Assembly (NCBI RefSeq): GCF_000299935.1
Contig: NZ_AMRL01000002.1
Coordinates: 186,001 to 250,000, forward strand
DNA: 64,000 nt
Direction of reading: 5' to 3'
DNA from: Oceanibaculum indicum P24
GTDB lineage: Bacteria; Pseudomonadota; Alphaproteobacteria; Oceanibaculales; Oceanibaculaceae
Shown: in pieces, positions 1-47,100 of the stretch
Layout: each line of letters opens with the position of its first letter
Numbering within the stretch: position 1 is the stretch's first letter
Program-made: the position numbers and the translations under genes
Notes under the pieces: model-generated
The model's database searches: none
What the model was told of the DNA's origin: nothing
What the model saw: the letters and a program-made list of their open reading frames with translations, nothing else

Positions 1-289
1 CGAGACGGTAGAGACGGTCGCGGACATCCGGGTCCGTCCGGCGCAGGCGCTCGATCTGCAGGACGCCATGACGGACGGTCGTGTGGTCGCGGCCGCCGAA
101 GGCCGCGCCGAGATAGGGGTAGCTCCGGCCGGTCAGCTTACGGGCCAGCCAGTAAGCCTCTTGCCGCACCCGTGCGAGCGGCTGCTCTCGGCTTTCGCGC
201 AGCAGCTCCGCGATACGGATACCGGCCTGTCTCGCGACCAGGCGCTGCACGTCGAAGATGCGGATGCGCGACGGGTCCATGGCGGTCAT
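1..289 (-). CDS. DnaA domain-IV-like DNA-binding protein of the prophage (C-terminus outside the window)
   Basis: The 96 visible codons start with ATG at 289, overlapping the previous stop as ATGA. They contain the DnaA C-terminal helix-turn-helix signature: an AYWLARKLTGRSYPYLG stretch followed by AAFGGRDHTTVRHG and a basic tail with IERLRR. In DnaA this domain IV reads the 9-bp DnaA box. No AAA+ ATPase domain precedes it, so this is a stand-alone DNA-binding module. It is the last visible gene of the prophage early operon. A role in hijacking or competing with host replication initiation is inference. The end and any further domain lie beyond position 1. Confidence 0.75.
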   Translation of the reverse strand, partial: MTAMDPSRIRIFDVQRLVARQAGIRIAELLRESREQPLARVRQEAYWLARKLTGRSYPYLGAAFGGRDHTTVRHGVLQIERLRRTDPDVRDRLYRL

Positions 290-30117: not shown

Positions 30118-30770
30118 CAGCGTTTCAGGAGGCCGTGCTGGCGCAGGAAATCCAGCAAAGGCAGCAGGGGCAGACCCAGGATGGTAAAATAATCGCCCTC
30201 GATACGGCTGAACAGCTGTGCACCAAGTCCTTCTAGCTGATAGGCGCCAACCGAACTCTGCACGGCATCGCCGGCCGCATCGAGATAGGCTTCGATGAAT
30301 TCCTCGCTCAGGGGCCGCATCGTCAGGCGCGCGGTCGACAGCTCATGCCAGATGCGCTGCCCGTCCCGGGCGACGACGATGCCGCTGGACAGCGTGTGGG
30401 CGCGGCCCCGCAAGGCCTGCAGATGGGCGCGGGCATGATCGCGGTCGCCGGGCTTTTCGAACCAGACATTGTTGCAATCGAGCATCTGGTCGCAGCCGAT
30501 GACCAGCGCACCGGGGCGCTTGCGGGACACCCGCAGGGCCTTCGCCTCAGCCAGGGCGACAGCGGTATCGCCGGCGCTGGCACCCTCGGCCTGCAGGGCA
30601 ATACGGATTTCCGCCTCATCGACCGGCGCCGTCTCGACGATGAAATCCAGCCCGGCGCCGCGCAGAAGCTGCGCGCGGATGGTGCTGCCGGAGGCCAGGA
30701 TCAGTGTGGTGTCGCTGGCGGCGTCCCCTGCCAGGAGGGTCGTCCCGCTCTTAGTCCCGGTCGATGTCAC
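30117..30770 (-). CDS. Maf-family nucleotide pyrophosphatase
   Basis: A 217-residue Maf protein with ILASGSTIRAQLL (substrate loop), IGCDQMLDCNNVWFEKP and GAYQLEGLGAQLFSRIEGDYF, the diagnostic dTTP/UTP-pyrophosphatase-type segments. It cleanses modified or non-canonical nucleoside triphosphates and is linked to septum formation in Bacillus. It overlaps the PPDK-regulator gene's 3' end by 20 bp. The N-terminus before TTLILASGST is longer than in most relatives and the true start may lie further in. Confidence 0.9.
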   Translation of the reverse strand: MTSTGTKSGTTLLAGDAASDTTLILASGSTIRAQLLRGAGLDFIVETAPVDEAEIRIALQAEGASAGDTAVALAEAKALRVSRKRPGALVIGCDQMLDCNNVWFEKPGDRDHARAHLQALRGRAHTLSSGIVVARDGQRIWHELSTARLTMRPLSEEFIEAYLDAAGDAVQSSVGAYQLEGLGAQLFSRIEGDYFTILGLPLLPLLDFLRQHGLLKR

Positions 30771-31590
30771 TGTCTTTACGGTCCTGATAAATCTGCAGAA
30801 TTTCGGTCGCGGTTTCTTCGATGGAGCGCCGGGTCACATCGATGACCGGCCAGCCCTGGCGTTCGAACAGGCGGCGGGCTTCCGTGACCTCGCGGCGAAC
30901 TTCGTCGAGATTGATATAATCGCTCTCGGAGCCCTGATTGAGCATCAGCAGCCGGTTGCGCCTGATCTGCACCAACCGGTTCGGATCATTGGTCAGCCCG
31001 ACGATCAGCGGGTGCGTGGCCGTGGTCAGCTCGCGCGGCAGGCTGATGCCCGGCACCAGCGGCACGTTGGCGACCTTGAAGCCGCGATTGGCGATATAGA
31101 GACAGGTCGGCGTCTTGGAGGTGCGGGACACACCGACAAGCACGATATCGGCATGGTCGATATCGTGCAGATGCTGCCCATCATCATGCATCAGGGTGAA
31201 CTGCATCGCCTCGATGCGGCTGAAATAGGCCGCATCCATTTCATGCTGCCGGCCGGGGCGGCCACGTGCCTTTTTCCCCAGATAATGATGCAGCGCGCCC
31301 AGAACTGGATCGAGGACCGAGATCACCGGCACCTTCAAGGCGCGGCCAGCCGCTTCCAGCTTGCTGTAGAGATGCGGGTCCACCAGTGTCACGAGGACCG
31401 GGCCGGGATGCGCTTCGATGCCGGCAATGACCTTGTCCACATGGGCCGCCGTGCGGACCAGGAACCAGGTGTGCTCGATGGCCTTGACCCCCTCGAACTG
31501 GACAAGGCAAGCGCGGGCCACCTGATGGATTGTCTCGCCCGTAGAGTCCGAGACGAGATGCAGATGGACCGGCCCCTCAGTGGCCATCAT
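30751..31590 (-). CDS. pyruvate, phosphate dikinase/PEP synthase regulatory protein (DUF299)
   Basis: A 279-residue bifunctional kinase/pyrophosphorylase family protein with VHLHLVSDSTGETI at the N-terminus and a P-loop-like LVGVSRTSKTPTCLYIAN at about residue 150. It would regulate PPDK or PEP synthase by ADP-dependent phosphorylation and Pi-dependent dephosphorylation of a threonine next to the catalytic histidine. This gene is the traditional left neighbour of the replication origin in Alphaproteobacteria (RP001/CC0001 group). It begins 437 bp from hemE in the opposite direction. Confidence 0.94.
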   Translation of the reverse strand: MMATEGPVHLHLVSDSTGETIHQVARACLVQFEGVKAIEHTWFLVRTAAHVDKVIAGIEAHPGPVLVTLVDPHLYSKLEAAGRALKVPVISVLDPVLGALHHYLGKKARGRPGRQHEMDAAYFSRIEAMQFTLMHDDGQHLHDIDHADIVLVGVSRTSKTPTCLYIANRGFKVANVPLVPGISLPRELTTATHPLIVGLTNDPNRLVQIRRNRLLMLNQGSESDYINLDEVRREVTEARRLFERQGWPVIDVTRRSIEETATEILQIYQDRKDSDIDRD

Positions 31591-31611
31591 GCCGCGAGCC
31601 CCGGATCAGCC

Positions 31612-31620
31612 TGTGAATAA
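31612..31620 (-). promoter_or_regulatory. DnaA box, perfect consensus (TTATTCACA on minus strand)
   Basis: TGTGAATAA on the plus strand is the exact reverse complement of TTATTCACA, which fits the TTATNCACA DnaA-box consensus. It lies at the PPDK-regulator end of the candidate origin. Confidence 0.65.
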
Positions 31621-31630
31621 TCGTGAATCC

Positions 31631-31656
31631 GGGGGATAAAGGCCGACTTATCCCCC
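31631..31656. repeat. perfect 9-bp inverted repeat in the candidate origin
   Basis: GGGGGATAA (31631-31639) and TTATCCCCC (31648-31656) flank an 8-bp spacer. Each arm resembles a DnaA box (TTATCCMCM, 7 of 9), so it may be a pair of weak facing DnaA sites or an initiator-protein dyad. Confidence 0.6.
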
Positions 31657-31698
31657 CCGCGGCCAGGACGATCCCGGTACCGGGTTTTCCCCACGGTC

Positions 31699-31720
31699 AT
31701 TTGTCCTGCCCGGGACAAAT
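31699..31720. repeat. perfect 8-bp inverted repeat in the candidate origin
   Basis: ATTTGTCC and GGACAAAT surround a 6-nt spacer. It lies between divergent genes, so a terminator role is unlikely; a binding site for an origin or promoter protein is more plausible. Confidence 0.5.
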
Positions 31721-32027
31721 ATCCGGGGGAATGCGGGAAAAAGGTCCTATCCAAGCGAGATTCCAATTTCATCCCCATGATTCAGCTTTTCAGCGAAGCC
31801 CGGTCGAATGGCCAGCATGGCTTGGAGAATGCCGCTTACAGCCGATGAAATCCACAGTGGCGCCGACGGCATAAGGCAATGTGACCAAGCCTGTGGAGAA
31901 AGCCGGCGATCCGAATAATCCCCGATCCTCGCCCCCATACACTACCGCTACCACTATATTTTAGAGTCTAGTTTAGGTAAGGGAATACAGGCCTTAGCGC
32001 TATCGGCCCCGCCTTCAGGAGACGAAA

Positions 32028-33068
32028 ATGGCTGCCAAACCCGCAAAACGGATGCTACGTGCCCTGAGCGGAGAGCGGCTTGATAAGCCCCCCTTCTGGC
32101 TCATGCGTCAGGCCGGGCGTTACCTGCCGGAATATCGGGAAGTGCGCAGTCAGGCGGGCGGCTTCCTCGATCTCTGCTATTCGCCAAAGCTTGCCTGCGA
32201 GGTGACGCTGCAACCCATCCGCCGCTATGGCATGGATGCCGCCATCCTGTTCTCCGACATCCTCGTCGTTCCCCACGGGCTGGCGCAGCAGGTTGCTTTC
32301 AAGGAAGGCGAAGGCCCTGTTCTCGACCCCATCCGCAACGCCAGTGAGCTTAAGCGCCTGTCCTTAGATGGTTTTCACGAACGCGTGGCCCCGGTCTATG
32401 AGACAGTTTCCCGCCTCGCCGAGGCCCTGCCCAAGGAAACCACGCTGATTGGCTTCGCCGGATCGCCCTGGACGGTCGCGACCTATATGGCCGAAGGCGG
32501 CGGCAGCAAGGAATTCGTTGCCGTAAAACGCTGGGCCTATGGCGATCCAGAAGGTTTCGCACAGCTCATCGATCTGCTGGTCGAGGCCACCATCGCCTAT
32601 CTGAAGCGCCAGGCCGAGGCCGGTGCCGAGGTGCTTCAGCTGTTCGACAGCTGGGCTGGCGTGCTGCCGGAGCCGGCCTTCCGGCGCTGGTGCATCGAGC
32701 CGACCCGAAAGATTATTGCCGCGCTGAAGGGGAGTCATCCCGATATCCCGATCATCGGTTTTCCACGCGGGGCAGGCACGCTGTGCCATGATTATGCGAT
32801 GGAGACCGGTGTGGATGCGGTCTCGCTGGATACGTCCATGGAGATCAGCTGGGCGGCCAGGACGCTGCAGCCGAAACTGCCGGTGCAGGGCAATCTCGAC
32901 CCGATCCTGCTGGTTGCCGGCGGCGAAGCCCTCGACCGCGAGGCGGACCGTATCCTCGAGGGATTTTCGGGCGGCGCGCACATCTTCAATCTCGGCCATG
33001 GCGTGACTCAGACGACACCGCCGGAGAATGTCGAGCGGCTGGCGCGGCGTTTGCGCGCAGATGGCTAG
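32028..33068 (+). CDS. hemE: uroporphyrinogen decarboxylase
   Basis: A 346-residue HemE with [11 protein letters not shown] near residue 27 (substrate binding), the FSDILVVP motif, [24 protein letters not shown] and a closing [16 protein letters not shown]. It decarboxylates the four acetate side chains of uroporphyrinogen III. It is the first gene right of the candidate origin and starts the hemE-hemH-hemJ haem block. The ATG follows CAGGAGACGAAA. Confidence 0.97.
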
Positions 33069-36172: not shown

Positions 36173-36188
36173 TGTTTCACGTGAAACA
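36173..36188. promoter_or_regulatory. parS site, perfect 16-bp match
   Basis: TGTTTCACGTGAAACA matches the ParB-binding consensus exactly. It lies between the rho terminator and the quinone reductase, outside any gene. ParB (46060-47100) would load here and spread, linking the origin region to ParA-driven segregation. Confidence 0.95.
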
Positions 36189-36213: not shown

Positions 36214-37188
36214 TTACGGCAGGAAGACCGTCGAGCCAGTGGTCTTGCGGGCTTCCAGGTCCTGATGCGCCTTCACGACATCCTTCATCGGGTAGGTCTG
36301 GTTGATGTCGATCTTCACCTTGCCGGATTTCACGATGTCGAACAGTTCCGCCGACATGGCCAGCAGATCTTCCCGCTTGGCGGTATAGGTCATCATTGTC
36401 GGCCGGGTAAGGAACAGCGATCCCTTCGCGGAGAGCACGCCCAGCTCAAGCGGCGGCACATTGCCCGAGGACTGGCCGAAGGCCACCATCAGGCCCAGCG
36501 GGGACAGGCAGTCCAGCGACTTCATGAAAGTGTCCTTGCCGACACCGTCATAGACCACCGGCACGCCCTTGCCACCGGTGATCTCCTTCACCCGTTCGAC
36601 AAAATCCTCCTGCTTGTACAGGATGGTGTGGTGACAGCCATGAGCTTTTGCCAGCTCGGCTTTCTTCTCGTCGCCGACCGTACCGATGACGGTGGCCCCC
36701 AGTGCAGCGGCCCACTGGCAGAGGATGAGGCCGACACCGCCGGCGGCGGCATGCATCAGGATCGTGTCGCCTTGCTTCACCTTGTAGGTGCGGCGAATGA
36801 GATACTGGGTGGTCAGGCCCTTCAGCATCATGGCTGCGGCCTGCTGATCGCTGATGCCCTCGGGGATCTTGACCAGACGGTCAGCGGCGATGATGCGGGC
36901 TTCGGAATAGCTGCCGGGAGGGCCGGCGGCATAGGCAACGCGGTCGCCTTCCACCAGATCCTTCACGTCAGGCCCGACAGCCTCGACGATGCCGGCACCT
37001 TCCATGCCAATGCCTGAGGGCAGAGGCAGGGCGTAGAGGCCACTGCGGTGATAGGTGTCGATATAGTTGAGGCCGACCGCGGTGTGGCGGACACGGGCCT
37101 GGCCGGGGCCGGGAGCAGGCAGGTCAACTTCCTGCCATTGCATCGCTTCCGGACCACCGGGCTGTTGAATACGGATCGCTTGGACCAT
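36214..37188 (-). CDS. NADPH:quinone reductase, zinc-free alcohol dehydrogenase-like (QOR)
   Basis: A 324-residue MDR-family quinone oxidoreductase: GLNYIDTYHRSGLY, PSGIGMEGAGIVEAVG and DRVAYAAGPPGSYSE in the substrate domain, and a Rossmann NADPH site AAAGGVGLILCQWAAALGA. No catalytic zinc cysteine/histidine set is seen, consistent with QOR. It is 11 bp after the dienelactone hydrolase start on the same strand, so the two may share transcription. Confidence 0.92.
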   Translation of the reverse strand: MVQAIRIQQPGGPEAMQWQEVDLPAPGPGQARVRHTAVGLNYIDTYHRSGLYALPLPSGIGMEGAGIVEAVGPDVKDLVEGDRVAYAAGPPGSYSEARIIAADRLVKIPEGISDQQAAAMMLKGLTTQYLIRRTYKVKQGDTILMHAAAGGVGLILCQWAAALGATVIGTVGDEKKAELAKAHGCHHTILYKQEDFVERVKEITGGKGVPVVYDGVGKDTFMKSLDCLSPLGLMVAFGQSSGNVPPLELGVLSAKGSLFLTRPTMMTYTAKREDLLAMSAELFDIVKSGKVKIDINQTYPMKDVVKAHQDLEARKTTGSTVFLP

Positions 37189-37199
37189 GGGTTATTTCC

Positions 37200-37895
37200 T
37201 CAGGACAGGTTGTTTTTCAGGAAGGCAGCTGTGCGCTGATGCGCCAGCGTGGCAGCTTCCTTGTTGTAATGCTCGCCACCGATGCGGGCGAAGGCGTGAT
37301 CGACCCCCGGATAGGCATGGGCCTCGACCTGAGGATGATCCTTCAGGCCGGCCAGGATCTTCTCCTGCGCCTCTTTCGGCACGAACTTGTCGAGGGCAGC
37401 AATGTGCATCAGCAGGGGGTTCTTGATCTTTGCGGATTCGCCCAGCAGATCCTGAATGCCGACGCCGTAATAGCTGACATTGCAGTCGGCATCGGAGCGG
37501 GTGGCCATCAGATAGGCCATCTTGCCGCCGAGGCAGAAGCCCATCGTACCGACCTTGCCGTTGCTGCCATCGATGCTGCGGGCGGCCTTGATGGTCTCCA
37601 CCAGATCGGAGACGCCTTTCTCGACATCGAAGCCGTTGAACAGCTCGAAGGCGCGTGCCCATTCGGCTTCGCTCTGGTCGGTTATCTGGATGCCGGGTTC
37701 CTGGCGCCAGAACAGGTCCGGGCAGATTGTGATGAAGCCATCGCTGGCAAGGTCATTGCAGATATCCCGCATCACCTCATTGACGCCGAAAATCTCCTGG
37801 ATCACCACGATGACCGGGGCAGGGGTCGCCTTGGGCTTGGCGACATAGGCCATGAAAGAGCCGCCATCGGCGGCCTTGATATTTATCTCGGGCAT
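37200..37895 (-). CDS. dienelactone hydrolase family protein
   Basis: A 231-residue alpha/beta hydrolase of the dienelactone hydrolase type, with a cysteine nucleophile C121 in GFCLGGK, E34 (QEIFG), catalytic D169 (ALDKFVP) and H200 (PGVDHAF). In aromatic degradation it opens dienelactones; outside such clusters the substrate is often unknown. It precedes the quinone reductase by 11 bp. No neighbouring aromatic genes are seen. Confidence 0.92.
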   Translation of the reverse strand: MPEINIKAADGGSFMAYVAKPKATPAPVIVVIQEIFGVNEVMRDICNDLASDGFITICPDLFWRQEPGIQITDQSEAEWARAFELFNGFDVEKGVSDLVETIKAARSIDGSNGKVGTMGFCLGGKMAYLMATRSDADCNVSYYGVGIQDLLGESAKIKNPLLMHIAALDKFVPKEAQEKILAGLKDHPQVEAHAYPGVDHAFARIGGEHYNKEAATLAHQRTAAFLKNNLS

Positions 37896-37960
37896 TTGTT
37901 CCTCCGAGTGTGCACAGATGGGGAGATCATGGCGGCTTGAGGCAAAGATTCAAGCCGCTC

Positions 37961-38443
37961 CTACAATCCAGCCAGAAGCGGGAGCGTTGGCGCTTCATGA
38001 TCCAGCAGTCGGGCCTTGGTTTTCTTGCCATCGCCGCCGCTGAAACCCACCAGAGTGCCGTCCTTGCCGATCACCCGGTGGCAAGGAACGATCAGCGGAA
38101 TGGGATTGGCACCACAGGCAGTGCCGACGGCGCGGGGATTGGAGCCAATGCGCTGCGCGATATCGCCATAGGTCAGTGTCTCGCCATAGGGGATGGTCAG
38201 CATTTCCTGCCAGACGGCAAGATTGTGATCCGATCCACGCAGGTTGAGCGGGAGATCGAATTGCTTCAGCTCTCGTGCGAAATAGCTGAATATCTGTTTG
38301 GCTGCTTCCTGCAGGACAGGATTGTCGCTGTTATCCGGGCCGCTTTGCGCGAATCGCACCGCACAGATTGCGCCATCCTGCGCCGTCAGGGTCAGGGGAC
38401 CAACGGGACTGTTCAGGGTGAGGCGGGCGAGAGGCGCGTTCAT
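37961..38443 (-). CDS. ogt: methylated-DNA-protein cysteine methyltransferase
   Basis: A 160-residue Ogt/MGMT. The active-site motif is IVPCHRVIG with acceptor C121, and helix-turn-helix elements AVWQEMLTIPYGETLTY and RAVGTACGANP. It transfers alkyl groups from O6-alkylguanine onto itself. The ATG at 38443 overlaps the stop of the DUF255 gene (ATGA), giving translational coupling. No Ada regulatory domain is attached. Confidence 0.95.
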   Translation of the reverse strand: MNAPLARLTLNSPVGPLTLTAQDGAICAVRFAQSGPDNSDNPVLQEAAKQIFSYFARELKQFDLPLNLRGSDHNLAVWQEMLTIPYGETLTYGDIAQRIGSNPRAVGTACGANPIPLIVPCHRVIGKDGTLVGFSGGDGKKTKARLLDHEAPTLPLLAGL

Positions 38444-40482
38444 GCATCGCTCCGGGCGGCCAGCAGGGCCTCGCTGAGCGCCTTTGGCTCCCGCAGGGGC
38501 AGGGAACAGCGCTGGCCGACGCACAGGTACGCAGCGCTCTGCAAAGTGCCTTCCAGCGCAGTGCTGGCCGGGTGGTTCGAGGGCAGGGCGCCCTTCTGCC
38601 CCAGCTGGTGCAGGATCAGGCCCGGCGCGGAGACGTCGGCGATGGCGCGCAGCAAGCCAACATAGGTCGGCGTTGTCGGATCGCCCGTGAGAGTAATCTG
38701 CAGCGGCCGTTGGGCGATGTCGCAGCCATTGAGGAAGGTCGCCAGCGGGAAGAAATTGCGTCCGATCTCGCCGGCAAAGCGCGGAATCAGGAGATCGGCC
38801 TTGCCGCGGTAGCTGTCGTCACCGGTCAAGTGATAAAGCGTTGTCAACACCTGCAGCATGGTCCCGTTTCCGGCCGGGACAGCATTGTCCTGAGCATTTT
38901 TGGCGCGCAGCACGACATCATTTGTGTCGTCGGCGGTAGTGAAATAGCCGCCGCCCTCATGATCCCAATAGTGCCGGTCCAGCACATCCACCCAGGCGAT
39001 GGCCTGGCCAAGGAAACGCTGATGACGGGTGATCTGGAACAGCGCCAGCGCGGCGGAGGCCATGTTGGCATAATCCTCCAGCGTTGCCGGGTGGCGTAGG
39101 ATATCGCCACGCCGGCTGTGCCGCAGCCTTCCATCGAGGGTCATCTTCTCGACAACATAATCGAAGGCCCGGATGGCTGCGCGGAGCCAGTCAGCATGGG
39201 CAAAGGCAAAGCTGGCTTGAGCGAGGGCGCGGATCATCAGCCCGTTCCAGTCGGCCAGCACCTTGTCGTCCCAGCCGGGCCTTTCCCGCTGCTCACGATG
39301 TTCGAAAAGAAGCTGCCGGACCTGTGCGAGCTGGCTCTCCGCCGCACCATTCCCGAGATCGGGCCGGCGGTTTCGATGCAGGATGGTCACACCTTCCCAG
39401 TTGCCCTCCGGCGTCACGTCATAGGCGCGCTTGAAGCTCTCCAGGGCCTCGCCCGGCAGGTGAGCAAGCAACTGGTCAATCTCAGCCTCGCGCCAGACAT
39501 AAAATTTGCCTTCCTCGCCTTCGCTGTCGGCATCCAGCGAACTGGCGAAACCACCTTCATCGGTGATCATCTCGCGGAGAACCCACCCGATCGTTTCCTC
39601 CAGGCGCTGGCGGAACAATGGCCGGCCGGTTTCCAGCGCCGCATGGGTCAGCATCTCGATCAGCTGGGCATTGTCGTACAGCATCTTCTCGAAATGCGGC
39701 GCCAGCCACTGCGCATCGGTCGAATAGCGGGCAAAACCGCCGCCCAGATGATCGTAGATGCCGCCCTGGCACATGCGTTCGAGCGTCAGCAGCACATAAT
39801 CGCGAGAGTCCTGATTGCCGCTGCGCAGCCAGTGCCGCCACAGCAGCATCAGCATGCCAGGCTGGGGAAATTTCGGCGCGCCGCCGATGCCGCCATGGAT
39901 CGGATCGATCTCCCGGTGCAGTCGCTCGGCGATACGGTCCAGCAGGGCCGGTTCGATATTCTCACCCGCCGCTGGCTCGGCCAGTTGCCGCAGCGCCTGG
40001 CGCAGGGCGCTGGCATTGCGCGACACCTTGTCGGAACCCTCGGCATGAGCATCCGCGATGGCCTGCAGCACCGCCTTGAAGCCAGGCCGACCGTAGCGGG
40101 CTTCCTTTGGAAAATAGGTGCCGCCCCAGAACGGATCGCCATCAGGCGTCAGGAACATGGTCAGCGGCCAGCCGCCCTGTTCGCCCAGAATGGCAAGGGC
40201 GGACTGGTAGATGTGATCGATGTCGGGGCGTTCCTCACGGTCCACCTTCACATTGACGAACAGCCGGTTCATCAGCGCAGCTGTCTCGTCATCCTCGAAG
40301 CTCTCATGGGCCATGACGTGGCACCAGTGACAGGCGGCATAGCCGACGGACAACAGGATCGGCTTGCCCTCGGCTCGGGCGCGGTCCAGCGCCTCGCGGC
40401 CCCAGGACATCCAGTGAACGGGATTATCCTTGTGCTGCAGGAGATAGGGGCTGGCTTCTTGTGCCAGGAGGTTGCCGCTCAT
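38440..40482 (-). CDS. DUF255 thioredoxin-fold protein (YyaL/spermatogenesis-associated 20 family)
   Basis: A 680-residue protein with an N-terminal thioredoxin-like domain containing CHWCHVM (C51, C54) and a C-terminal (alpha/alpha)6-barrel glycosidase-like domain (YDHLGGGFARYSTDAQW, HFEKMLYDNAQL, WNGLMIRALAQAS). The family is widespread and its biochemical role is not settled. The ATG at 40482 fits the family start (MSGNLLAQEASPYLLQH). It is coupled to ogt downstream. Confidence 0.9.
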   Translation of the reverse strand: MSGNLLAQEASPYLLQHKDNPVHWMSWGREALDRARAEGKPILLSVGYAACHWCHVMAHESFEDDETAALMNRLFVNVKVDREERPDIDHIYQSALAILGEQGGWPLTMFLTPDGDPFWGGTYFPKEARYGRPGFKAVLQAIADAHAEGSDKVSRNASALRQALRQLAEPAAGENIEPALLDRIAERLHREIDPIHGGIGGAPKFPQPGMLMLLWRHWLRSGNQDSRDYVLLTLERMCQGGIYDHLGGGFARYSTDAQWLAPHFEKMLYDNAQLIEMLTHAALETGRPLFRQRLEETIGWVLREMITDEGGFASSLDADSEGEEGKFYVWREAEIDQLLAHLPGEALESFKRAYDVTPEGNWEGVTILHRNRRPDLGNGAAESQLAQVRQLLFEHREQRERPGWDDKVLADWNGLMIRALAQASFAFAHADWLRAAIRAFDYVVEKMTLDGRLRHSRRGDILRHPATLEDYANMASAALALFQITRHQRFLGQAIAWVDVLDRHYWDHEGGGYFTTADDTNDVVLRAKNAQDNAVPAGNGTMLQVLTTLYHLTGDDSYRGKADLLIPRFAGEIGRNFFPLATFLNGCDIAQRPLQITLTGDPTTPTYVGLLRAIADVSAPGLILHQLGQKGALPSNHPASTALEGTLQSAAYLCVGQRCSLPLREPKALSEALLAARSDA

Positions 40483-40651
40483 CTGTGCCTTTCCCGCCTG
40501 CTGTGCCCGGTATAGGGTTGATTTCGGCTTGGCTGTGCCAGTCTTAATGGTTGGCAATCCTGCGCTTGACTTCAAGTCTGCGGACGGTCTGGACGTCGAT
40601 CAGGATCGTCAGGGCCGGAAAATCGTTACGCAAGCGGTATATGAGGTGTCC

Positions 40652-42676: not shown

Positions 42677-42692
42677 TGTTTCACGTGAAACA
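42677..42692. promoter_or_regulatory. parS site, perfect 16-bp match
   Basis: TGTTTCACGTGAAACA in the mnmE-mnmG intergenic gap. Second of three identical sites in the window. Confidence 0.95.
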
Positions 42693-44655: not shown

Positions 44656-45232
44656 ATGGCCACGAATGTTTCACGTGAAACACTGGAGCGTCTGGAGGCC
44701 TATGTGGCGTTGCTGGCCAAATGGCAAAAAGCAGTCAACCTGGTCGGTCCTCGTACGCTAAAAGATGTTTGGCGTCGCCATATTCTCGATTCCCTTCAGC
44801 TAATGCCGTATAGTCCCAAAGAAACCGCTTCTGCGCTCGACTTTGGAAGTGGCGCCGGCCTGCCGGGACTGGTCCTGGCAATCGCGGGGGTTAGGGGGAT
44901 GGTTCTGGTCGAATCGGATGCACGCAAGGCGGCCTTTCTTCGGGAGGCGGCGCGGGTGACCGAGACGGAGCTGGAGGTCTTTCATGGCCGGATCGAGATG
45001 CTTCCGGCCAGGAAGGCCGATCTGATCACCGCCCGGGCACTGACAAATGTGGCCGGACTCCTTGGCTATACTTGGCCATACCTGAAGCCGGAGGGCCGGT
45101 GCCTTTTCCTCAAGGGCAAGGGTGTCGATGAGGAGCTAAAAGAGGCGGAATCGCTTTGGGAAATGCGGGTCACCAAATATCCCAGCCGCACGGCGCCGGA
45201 CGGGGTGATCCTTCAACTGGAGGGCATACGTC

Positions 45233-45249
<17 letters not shown>
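44656..45249 (+). CDS. rsmG: 16S rRNA (guanine-527-N7) methyltransferase RsmG
   Basis: A 197-residue SAM-dependent methyltransferase with LDFGSGAGLPGLVLAI (SAM-binding loop, residues about 67-82) and the DSLQLMPY segment before it. It methylates G527 of 16S rRNA; loss often gives streptomycin resistance. A parS site is embedded in codons 4-9 (NVSRET), so the protein start is constrained by the ParB site. It overlaps parA by 17 bp. Confidence 0.95.
44667..44682. promoter_or_regulatory. parS site inside rsmG, perfect 16-bp match
   Basis: TGTTTCACGTGAAACA lies within the coding sequence of rsmG codons 4 to 9 (NVSRET). Third identical copy in the window. Confidence 0.95.
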
Positions 45250-46059
<810 letters not shown>

Positions 46060-46060
<1 letters not shown>

Positions 46061-47100
46061 TGGCACGCGAAAAGAGACAGAATCTGGGGCGCGGCCTCGA
46101 TGCCCTGCTGGGCGAGGACAGCGAGGATTACGCCGAACTCGACAAGCTGCGCCAGGGCAAGACAGCGCCGATTGAGTATCTGGAGCCCGGCCCATTCCAG
46201 CCGCGCCGGCTGTTCGCCGCCGAGGATATGGAATCGCTGATCGATTCGATCCGCGACAAGGGCGTGCTACAGCCCATTCTTGTGCGCCGGCATCCGGCAG
46301 ACCCCACGCGCTACCAGATCATTGCCGGCGAGCGCCGCTGGCGTGCGGCCCAGGCGGCGCAATTGCATGAAGTGCCTGTCGTCATCCGCGAGTTCGACGA
46401 CCGGGCGGCGCTGGAAGTCGCGCTGGTCGAGAATATCCAGCGCCAGGATCTGACCCCCATCGAAGAGGCTGAGGGCTACCGCCGCCTGATGGAGGAGTTC
46501 GGTCATACCCAGGAGGCGCTGGCCCAGGTCATCGGCAAGAGCCGCAGCCATATCGCCAATATGCTGCGCCTTCTGGCTCTGCCGGATTACGTGCGCGATG
46601 CCGTGGAAGAGGGCAAGATCAGCGCCGGTCATGCCCGCGCGCTGCTGGTCGTACCGAACAGCGAGAGCCTGCTCGGACAGGTCATCGCCAAGGGGCTCAG
46701 CGTCCGCGACACGGAAAAGCTGGTTCAGCGCGCCAAGGCGCCCGAATCGGGCAATGATGACGGTGCGGCATCGGCCGGCACCGGGAAACGCCGGCGTTCG
46801 TCCGGACGGGAAAAAGACACCGATACGCTGGCTCTCGAACGCGACCTTTCCGCGCTGCTCGGGCTGACCGTTAGCATCGATTTCAAGCCGGGGCAAGGCG
46901 GCGTGCTGTCCATCGAATACCGCACGCTGGAGCAGCTCGACGATGTGCTGTCGCGGCTCAGCCGGGGCGGGCGTCAGCCCCTGGACGGAGAAGAGGAAAC
47001 GCACGAAAGCTTCTCTGAAGATACAGCGATGGCAGACTTCGACCCGGAAGACCCGCTGATTCCAGACGCGGATGACGGGCTGGAAGAGCCGAAAGACTGA
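46060..47100 (+). CDS. parB: chromosome partitioning protein ParB (CTPase)
   Basis: A 346-residue ParB with the Spo0J-type N-terminal NTPase region including GERRWRAAQ (residues about 90-98), ENIQRQDL, a helix-turn-helix [20 protein letters not shown], and a C-terminal dimerisation domain around 285-315 ([20 protein letters not shown]). It binds parS and clamps onto flanking DNA using CTP. Three parS sites lie within 11 kb to the left. It is convergent with holA. Confidence 0.97.

Follow-up and report, generated by a model that had tools for sequence, protein, structure and literature searches.

A likely chromosomal replication origin between a PPDK-regulator gene and hemE in Oceanibaculum indicum P24

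Does the 437-bp stretch that separates hemE from a PPDK/PEP synthase regulator gene in Oceanibaculum indicum P24 serve as the replication origin of the chromosome? We consider it very probable that this gap is the chromosomal origin of this Oceanibaculum strain, the place from which replication would fire. The reading as a likely oriC, made originally from the sequence alone, is supported by GC skew, by a cluster of parS sites, by a sequence profile built with the genus left out, and by the persistence of the module in genomes that lack hemE. The origin is an ordinary one for its class, and what is added here is a mapped core, the parS cluster, a profile that is independent of hemE, and a question about the middle base of its triplets.

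The window is the whole stretch of 64,000 nucleotides that was analysed (C2:186001-250000, from a 3.95-Mb draft genome of 71 contigs), and positions refer to it unless a contig is named. Three further Oceanibaculum genomes (G001, G002 and G003), O. pacificum among them, were compared as congeners. The features are collected in the table.

Table. Features of the proposed origin and its surroundings (window positions)
Feature	Position	Strand	Remark
PPDK/PEP synthase regulator (COG1806/DUF299)	30751..31590	-	left boundary gene
Proposed oriC, intergenic	31591..32027	.	437 bp; C2:217,591-218,027
DnaA box TTATTCACA	31612..31620	-	
GANTC (CcrM) site	31625..31629	.	
Inverted pair of box-like TTATCCCCC (GGGGGATAA / TTATCCCCC)	31631..31656	.	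perfect 9-bp arms, 8-bp spacer
GANTC site	31759..31763	.	
Box-like TCATCCCCA	31769..31777	+	overlaps IHF-consensus site; TCCCC here invariant in four species
GANTC site	31779..31783	.	
DnaA box TTCTCCACA, 1 mismatch	31892..31900	-	identical in G001
Conserved core of the origin, from the outer box through inner-box position and triplet array into the AT-rich stretch	31916..31961	+	model R1, PWM
Outer DnaA-like box TAATCCCCG	31916..31924	+	TAATCCCCA in three congeners; AATCCCC invariant in four Oceanibaculum species
Inner DnaA box position, degenerate here: ATCCTCGCC	31925..31933	+	TTATCCACA in many relatives; ungapped register with relatives
Triplet array CTA CCG CTA CCA CTA	31942..31956	+	lower strand 3'-GAT GGC GAT GGT GAT-5', DnaA-trio-like
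AT-rich stretch after array	31957..31977	.	proposed start of unwinding element
GANTC site beside AT-rich stretch	31964..31968	.	shared by the four species, give or take a few bases
hemE	32028..33068	+	right boundary gene
Perfect parS TGTTTCACGTGAAACA	36173..36188	.	
Perfect parS	42677..42692	.	
Perfect parS	44667..44682	.	
parA	45233..46060	+	
parB	46060..47100	+	

Location, GC skew and parS

The gap is devoid of genes, as had been proposed: both flanking genes were placed, an Rfam search found no RNA family within it, and the sole long ORF that reaches into it is an antisense overlap with the regulator gene. The proposed neighbours are likewise all present, with maf, coaE, dnaQ and secB on the left and hemE, rho, mnmE, mnmG, rsmG, parA and parB on the right, where hemH and hemJ follow hemE as well. 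The regulator protein shows 85% identity to that of O. pacificum, the closest named relative among the genomes searched, and a search for loci related to its gene returned four loci. Between rho and mnmE, a zinc alcohol dehydrogenase and a DUF255 protein are encoded on the minus strand (36214-40575), head-on to the proposed direction of the fork.

Flanking orthologues of hemE and COG1806 mark the location of Cori-type origins. An origin has been mapped experimentally at this site in Caulobacter and the same location has been predicted for Rickettsia (PMC1914354), so that the assignment of the gap to the alphaproteobacterial oriC location stands. A search for the same gap in relatives, suggested with the original prediction, found it in 25 further alphaproteobacterial families, where hemE is likewise one border and COG1806 (or maf) the other. 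Apart from the boundary genes, the gap resembles Caulobacter crescentus Cori and the Rickettsia origin in length (404 bp in Caulobacter, PMC1914354) and in the possession of DnaA boxes, an AT-rich part, a possible IHF-like site, a skew switch and parS/ParAB nearby. It has a GC content of 56% against about 65% for the contig, and is thus richer in AT than average; the AT-rich end that had been noted reaches 65% AT at 31951-31990, compared with 44% for the whole gap. Unlike Caulobacter Cori with its five CtrA sites, the gap contains no TTAA-N7-TTAA site, in strict or loose form. CtrA sites are accessory and not universal in Cori-type origins, being absent in E. ruminantium (PMC1914354). Two further differences from Cori-type origins are the very small number of strong DnaA boxes and the distance to dnaA, which lies about 80-110 kb away in the Oceanibaculum congeners.

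GC skew had been named as a test of the proposal, and its outcome is favourable. In this draft the skew was read per contig. Along the full 303-kb contig that carries the gap, cumulative skew is lowest at C2:214,997, which is 2.6 kb away from the gap; the skew is mostly negative to the left and mostly positive to the right. The same switch occurs in two congeners: the sign changes at hemE in G001, and within about 30 kb before hemE in G002 (hemE at 534 kb, samples at 505 kb and beyond positive or zero). Genome-wide, it is seen in the relative G012 only, a closed genome from another family whose skew minimum coincides with the sampled interval that holds hemE (permutation p < 1/5000), the maximum lying roughly opposite; a second closed relative, G015, has no clear minimum (permutation p 0.13).

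Perfect parS sites, which did not figure in the original prediction, number exactly three in the 3.95-Mb genome, and all of them lie past hemE and beside parAB, at a distance of 4-13 kb, forming a clustered ParABS centromere near the origin together with both parA and parB.

DnaA boxes and the conserved core

The perfect DnaA box at 31612, the one-mismatch box at 31892 and the four GANTC sites on which the proposal drew are all present, but its stress on consensus DnaA boxes is its weakest part. Seven boxes with at most one mismatch occur in the 64-kb window, where 6.4 would be expected by chance; two of the seven are inside the 437-bp gap (P about 0.001, a binomial estimate), so that the enrichment of DnaA boxes typical of Cori-type origins is present weakly, and the consensus box TTATCCACA is missing from the gap. 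The exact sequence TTATYCACA has 10 copies genome-wide versus 11 for a reversed control, and because exact copies are at chance level, DnaA boxes alone are weak evidence for an origin. Canonical boxes would be expected here, since domain IV of the host DnaA has the canonical signature. An alignment of the gap from the four species shows that the box at 31612 is lost in G002 and G003. The inverted pair at 31631-31656 is largely kept in G001 and its GGGGATAA arm is kept in G002 and G003, so that one arm is found in all four species; it may bind a DnaA dimer or a regulator. The IHF consensus has one match (31770-31782, minus strand), which is also found in G001 only. A CcrM-type RAMA-domain protein (L093), which matches the GANTC sites of the gap, is encoded at C2:265403-265693, 47 kb from the origin.

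The part of the gap that is conserved is another stretch, 31916-31963, and this core with its triplet array had been missed. Among the four species, an invariant AATCCCC is followed after 16-17 bp by the triplet array and by the AT-rich stretch with a GANTC site, while the inner box is degenerate in all four. In 25 other families the hemE-proximal part of the gap can be approximated, with its orientation unchanged, as ATCCCCG-TTATCCACA-GG-NAT-CCACTACTACTAC-CTTTT, and ATCCCCG is a class-wide motif at the outer box. A position weight matrix trained on these other alphaproteobacterial families only, with no Oceanibaculum included, has its best match on both strands of the 303-kb contig at 31918-31960 (21.9 bits, the next being 14.3). 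The calibrated model R1, in which the members L016, L019 and L026 were anchored by hand, yields a single match at E<=10 in the strain's own genome, at 31916-31961; its E value of 0.017 suggests modest strength, and weaker sites may have been missed, because 150 of 399 first-look candidates were scored. In each of the three congeners the top R1 match is the homologous place. In all 30 of the 30 best R1 loci hemE is directly downstream in the same orientation. Matches were obtained in 187 of 290 genomes of the class, so that the profile (outer box, inner box, (CNA)n and AT-rich stretch) covers about two thirds of the sampled alphaproteobacterial genomes, some of them without hemE. The origin of one Oceanibaculum genome is thereby narrowed to a few dozen bases.

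The triplet array compared with the Bacillus system

The core is reminiscent of the basal unwinding system (BUS) of Bacillus subtilis, which is made up of DnaA boxes and DnaA-trios. Bacillus DnaA, bound to a pair of boxes that share one orientation, spreads from there onto the trios (3'-GAT-5'), and the G and A of every trio are captured (PMC8287927, PMC10721633); the middle adenine is read by Asn187 of B. subtilis DnaA. The order of parts is identical in both systems, running from the outer box over the inner-box position, the spacer and the triplet repeat to the AT-rich stretch, and the 3'-GAT-5' of Bacillus accounts for three of the five triplets in the window. The differences are that the outer box in Oceanibaculum has 3 mismatches, the inner box is degenerate and the spacer is 17, that the middle base in the class is A, C or T (upper strand) and thus not fixed, and that position 187 of DnaA is aromatic and not Asn. 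Loss of the inner box would fit, since the upstream box alone was found necessary for opening in the Bacillus work.

The strict published BUS rule calls for a box that has no more than two mismatches and is at most 16 bp away from the trios, and for at least three consecutive trios with a middle adenine (3'-NAN-5'). The Oceanibaculum box has 3 mismatches to TTATCCACA (2 in the congeners) at a spacer of 17, and a middle A is found in 3 of the 5 in-register triplets, non-consecutively. By that rule the core module is outside formal BUS membership, yet it looks BUS-like and probably works similarly, as its anatomy suggests. The lenient version of the published rule was dropped as evidence: the window passes via an unrelated weak site, the base rate is 5-12%, and 18 of 29 gaps pass.

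Across 29 gaps of the class, read on the upper strand, the array takes the form (C-N-A)n, with C in 25-28 and A in 19-22 of the 29 and with a middle A, C or T but almost never G. The same pattern was seen again in 21 further loci, some of them from the same families. As the middle column is mixed while the C and A columns are kept, the base equivalent to the middle adenine of Bacillus is free in the class. A repeat read from the upper strand instead (5'-NAC-3', with the middle A kept) is the less likely alternative, because the polarity of DnaA relative to the boxes would be reversed.

From the anatomy of the gap and the Bacillus model we infer how the origin may work. DnaA would bind the outer box, which points toward hemE, as well as the boxes scattered over the gap, most of them of low affinity, and its filament would extend to the lower strand of the array, where bases would be captured triplet by triplet. 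The AT-rich stretch would then be opened from about 31957 for helicase loading. The GANTC sites would provide CcrM-linked control, and the nearby parS/ParAB would bring about segregation of the new origins.

Alternative explanations and the middle base

One alternative sees in the gap a long 5' regulatory region of the ordinary kind, serving hemE and the divergent regulator, with the boxes and the conserved block being promoter or leader elements. The block does lie upstream of hemE in nearly every genome and is always hemE-oriented. We nevertheless regard this explanation as very improbable. The block persists in two genomes that have no URO-D gene, next to rho in both: in G041 it lies between maf and rho (L220, 3373-3711) and in G112 between PPSR and rho (L230, 2479-3067), and because they retain the module it is not a hemE promoter element. 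Where hemE lies away from PPSR/maf, the three such genes with readable upstream DNA (L030, L033 and L035) have no block in the upstream 175 bases, as judged by eye. A sigma-70-like promoter was looked for and none was found, and hemE regulation leaves the skew and the parS sites unexplained. It is scarcely credible, too, that the true origin is elsewhere, for example at dnaA, and that the gap is left over from an ancestral origin at this place. The dnaA gene sits on another contig, C23, with two exact DnaA boxes 15-18 kb from it, but the skew of C23 is one-sided, mostly positive and without a switch, and the profile has no match on that contig. Furthermore, dnaA of G001 is 110 kb from hemE within a stretch of positive skew, and parS sites are found at hemE while there are none near dnaA.

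If the gap is the origin, its triplet array could still be a coincidence of base composition, with the true unwinding site elsewhere in the gap. The departures from the strict BUS rule are compatible with this, as is the unconserved middle base. We consider such a coincidence unlikely. The array matches (CTA)5 in 12 of 15 letters in the window and in 14 of 15 in G001, and in neither case did any of 200 dinucleotide shuffles reach the array score. Over the 29 gaps (CNA)n scores 234, compared with a shuffle mean of 170 (sd 4.7) when the same maximisation is applied to the shuffles. The A-C-N-A pattern also emerges in columns anchored on the box and not on the array, namely A in 21, C in 25, a mixed column and A in 22 of 28 (four of the 28 anchors are apparently misplaced).

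Within the preferred reading of the gap as the origin and the array as its opening site, the free middle base directs attention to the initiator. The residue equivalent to Asn187 is Tyr in Oceanibaculum DnaA, and it is Tyr, Phe, His or Trp in all 37 alphaproteobacterial DnaA proteins aligned, whereas 19 of 19 other Pseudomonadota have Asn, Ala, Thr or Gln and none an aromatic residue (L164-L219 for the two groups together). Among classes beyond the Alphaproteobacteria, Asn at 187 is also missing in others. Triplet arrays near dnaA in other classes were tried as a control for the middle base and proved uninformative. We tentatively propose, with less than even confidence, that alphaproteobacterial origins open at a modified DnaA-trio, 3'-G-N-T-5', whose middle base is free (though rarely C on the lower strand), and that this trio is read by a DnaA in whose base-capture pocket Tyr, Phe, His or Trp, all of them aromatic, takes the place of Asn187. 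The link between residue 187 and the free middle base is put forward as a hypothesis built on aligned sequences, a correlation at one phylogenetic level and effectively a single comparison, and the newness of a relaxed middle base is uncertain. The question raised is whether the class has loosened its demand on the very base for which the Bacillus initiator is strictest, and has changed the residue that reads this base along with it.

The dnaA gene itself is found about 110 kb from hemE in both G001 (C1) and G002 (C12), on opposite sides of hemE and yet on the same absolute strand, so that its placement is not that of a simple origin-symmetric inversion. In the strain studied here, a small ORF 31 kb from the origin (17-274, minus strand; C2:186017-186274) encodes DnaA domain IV alone (Bac_DnaA_C, 69.9 bits; DnaA signature FGGRDHTTV), and such stand-alone pieces of domain IV are also present in several other alphaproteobacterial genomes.
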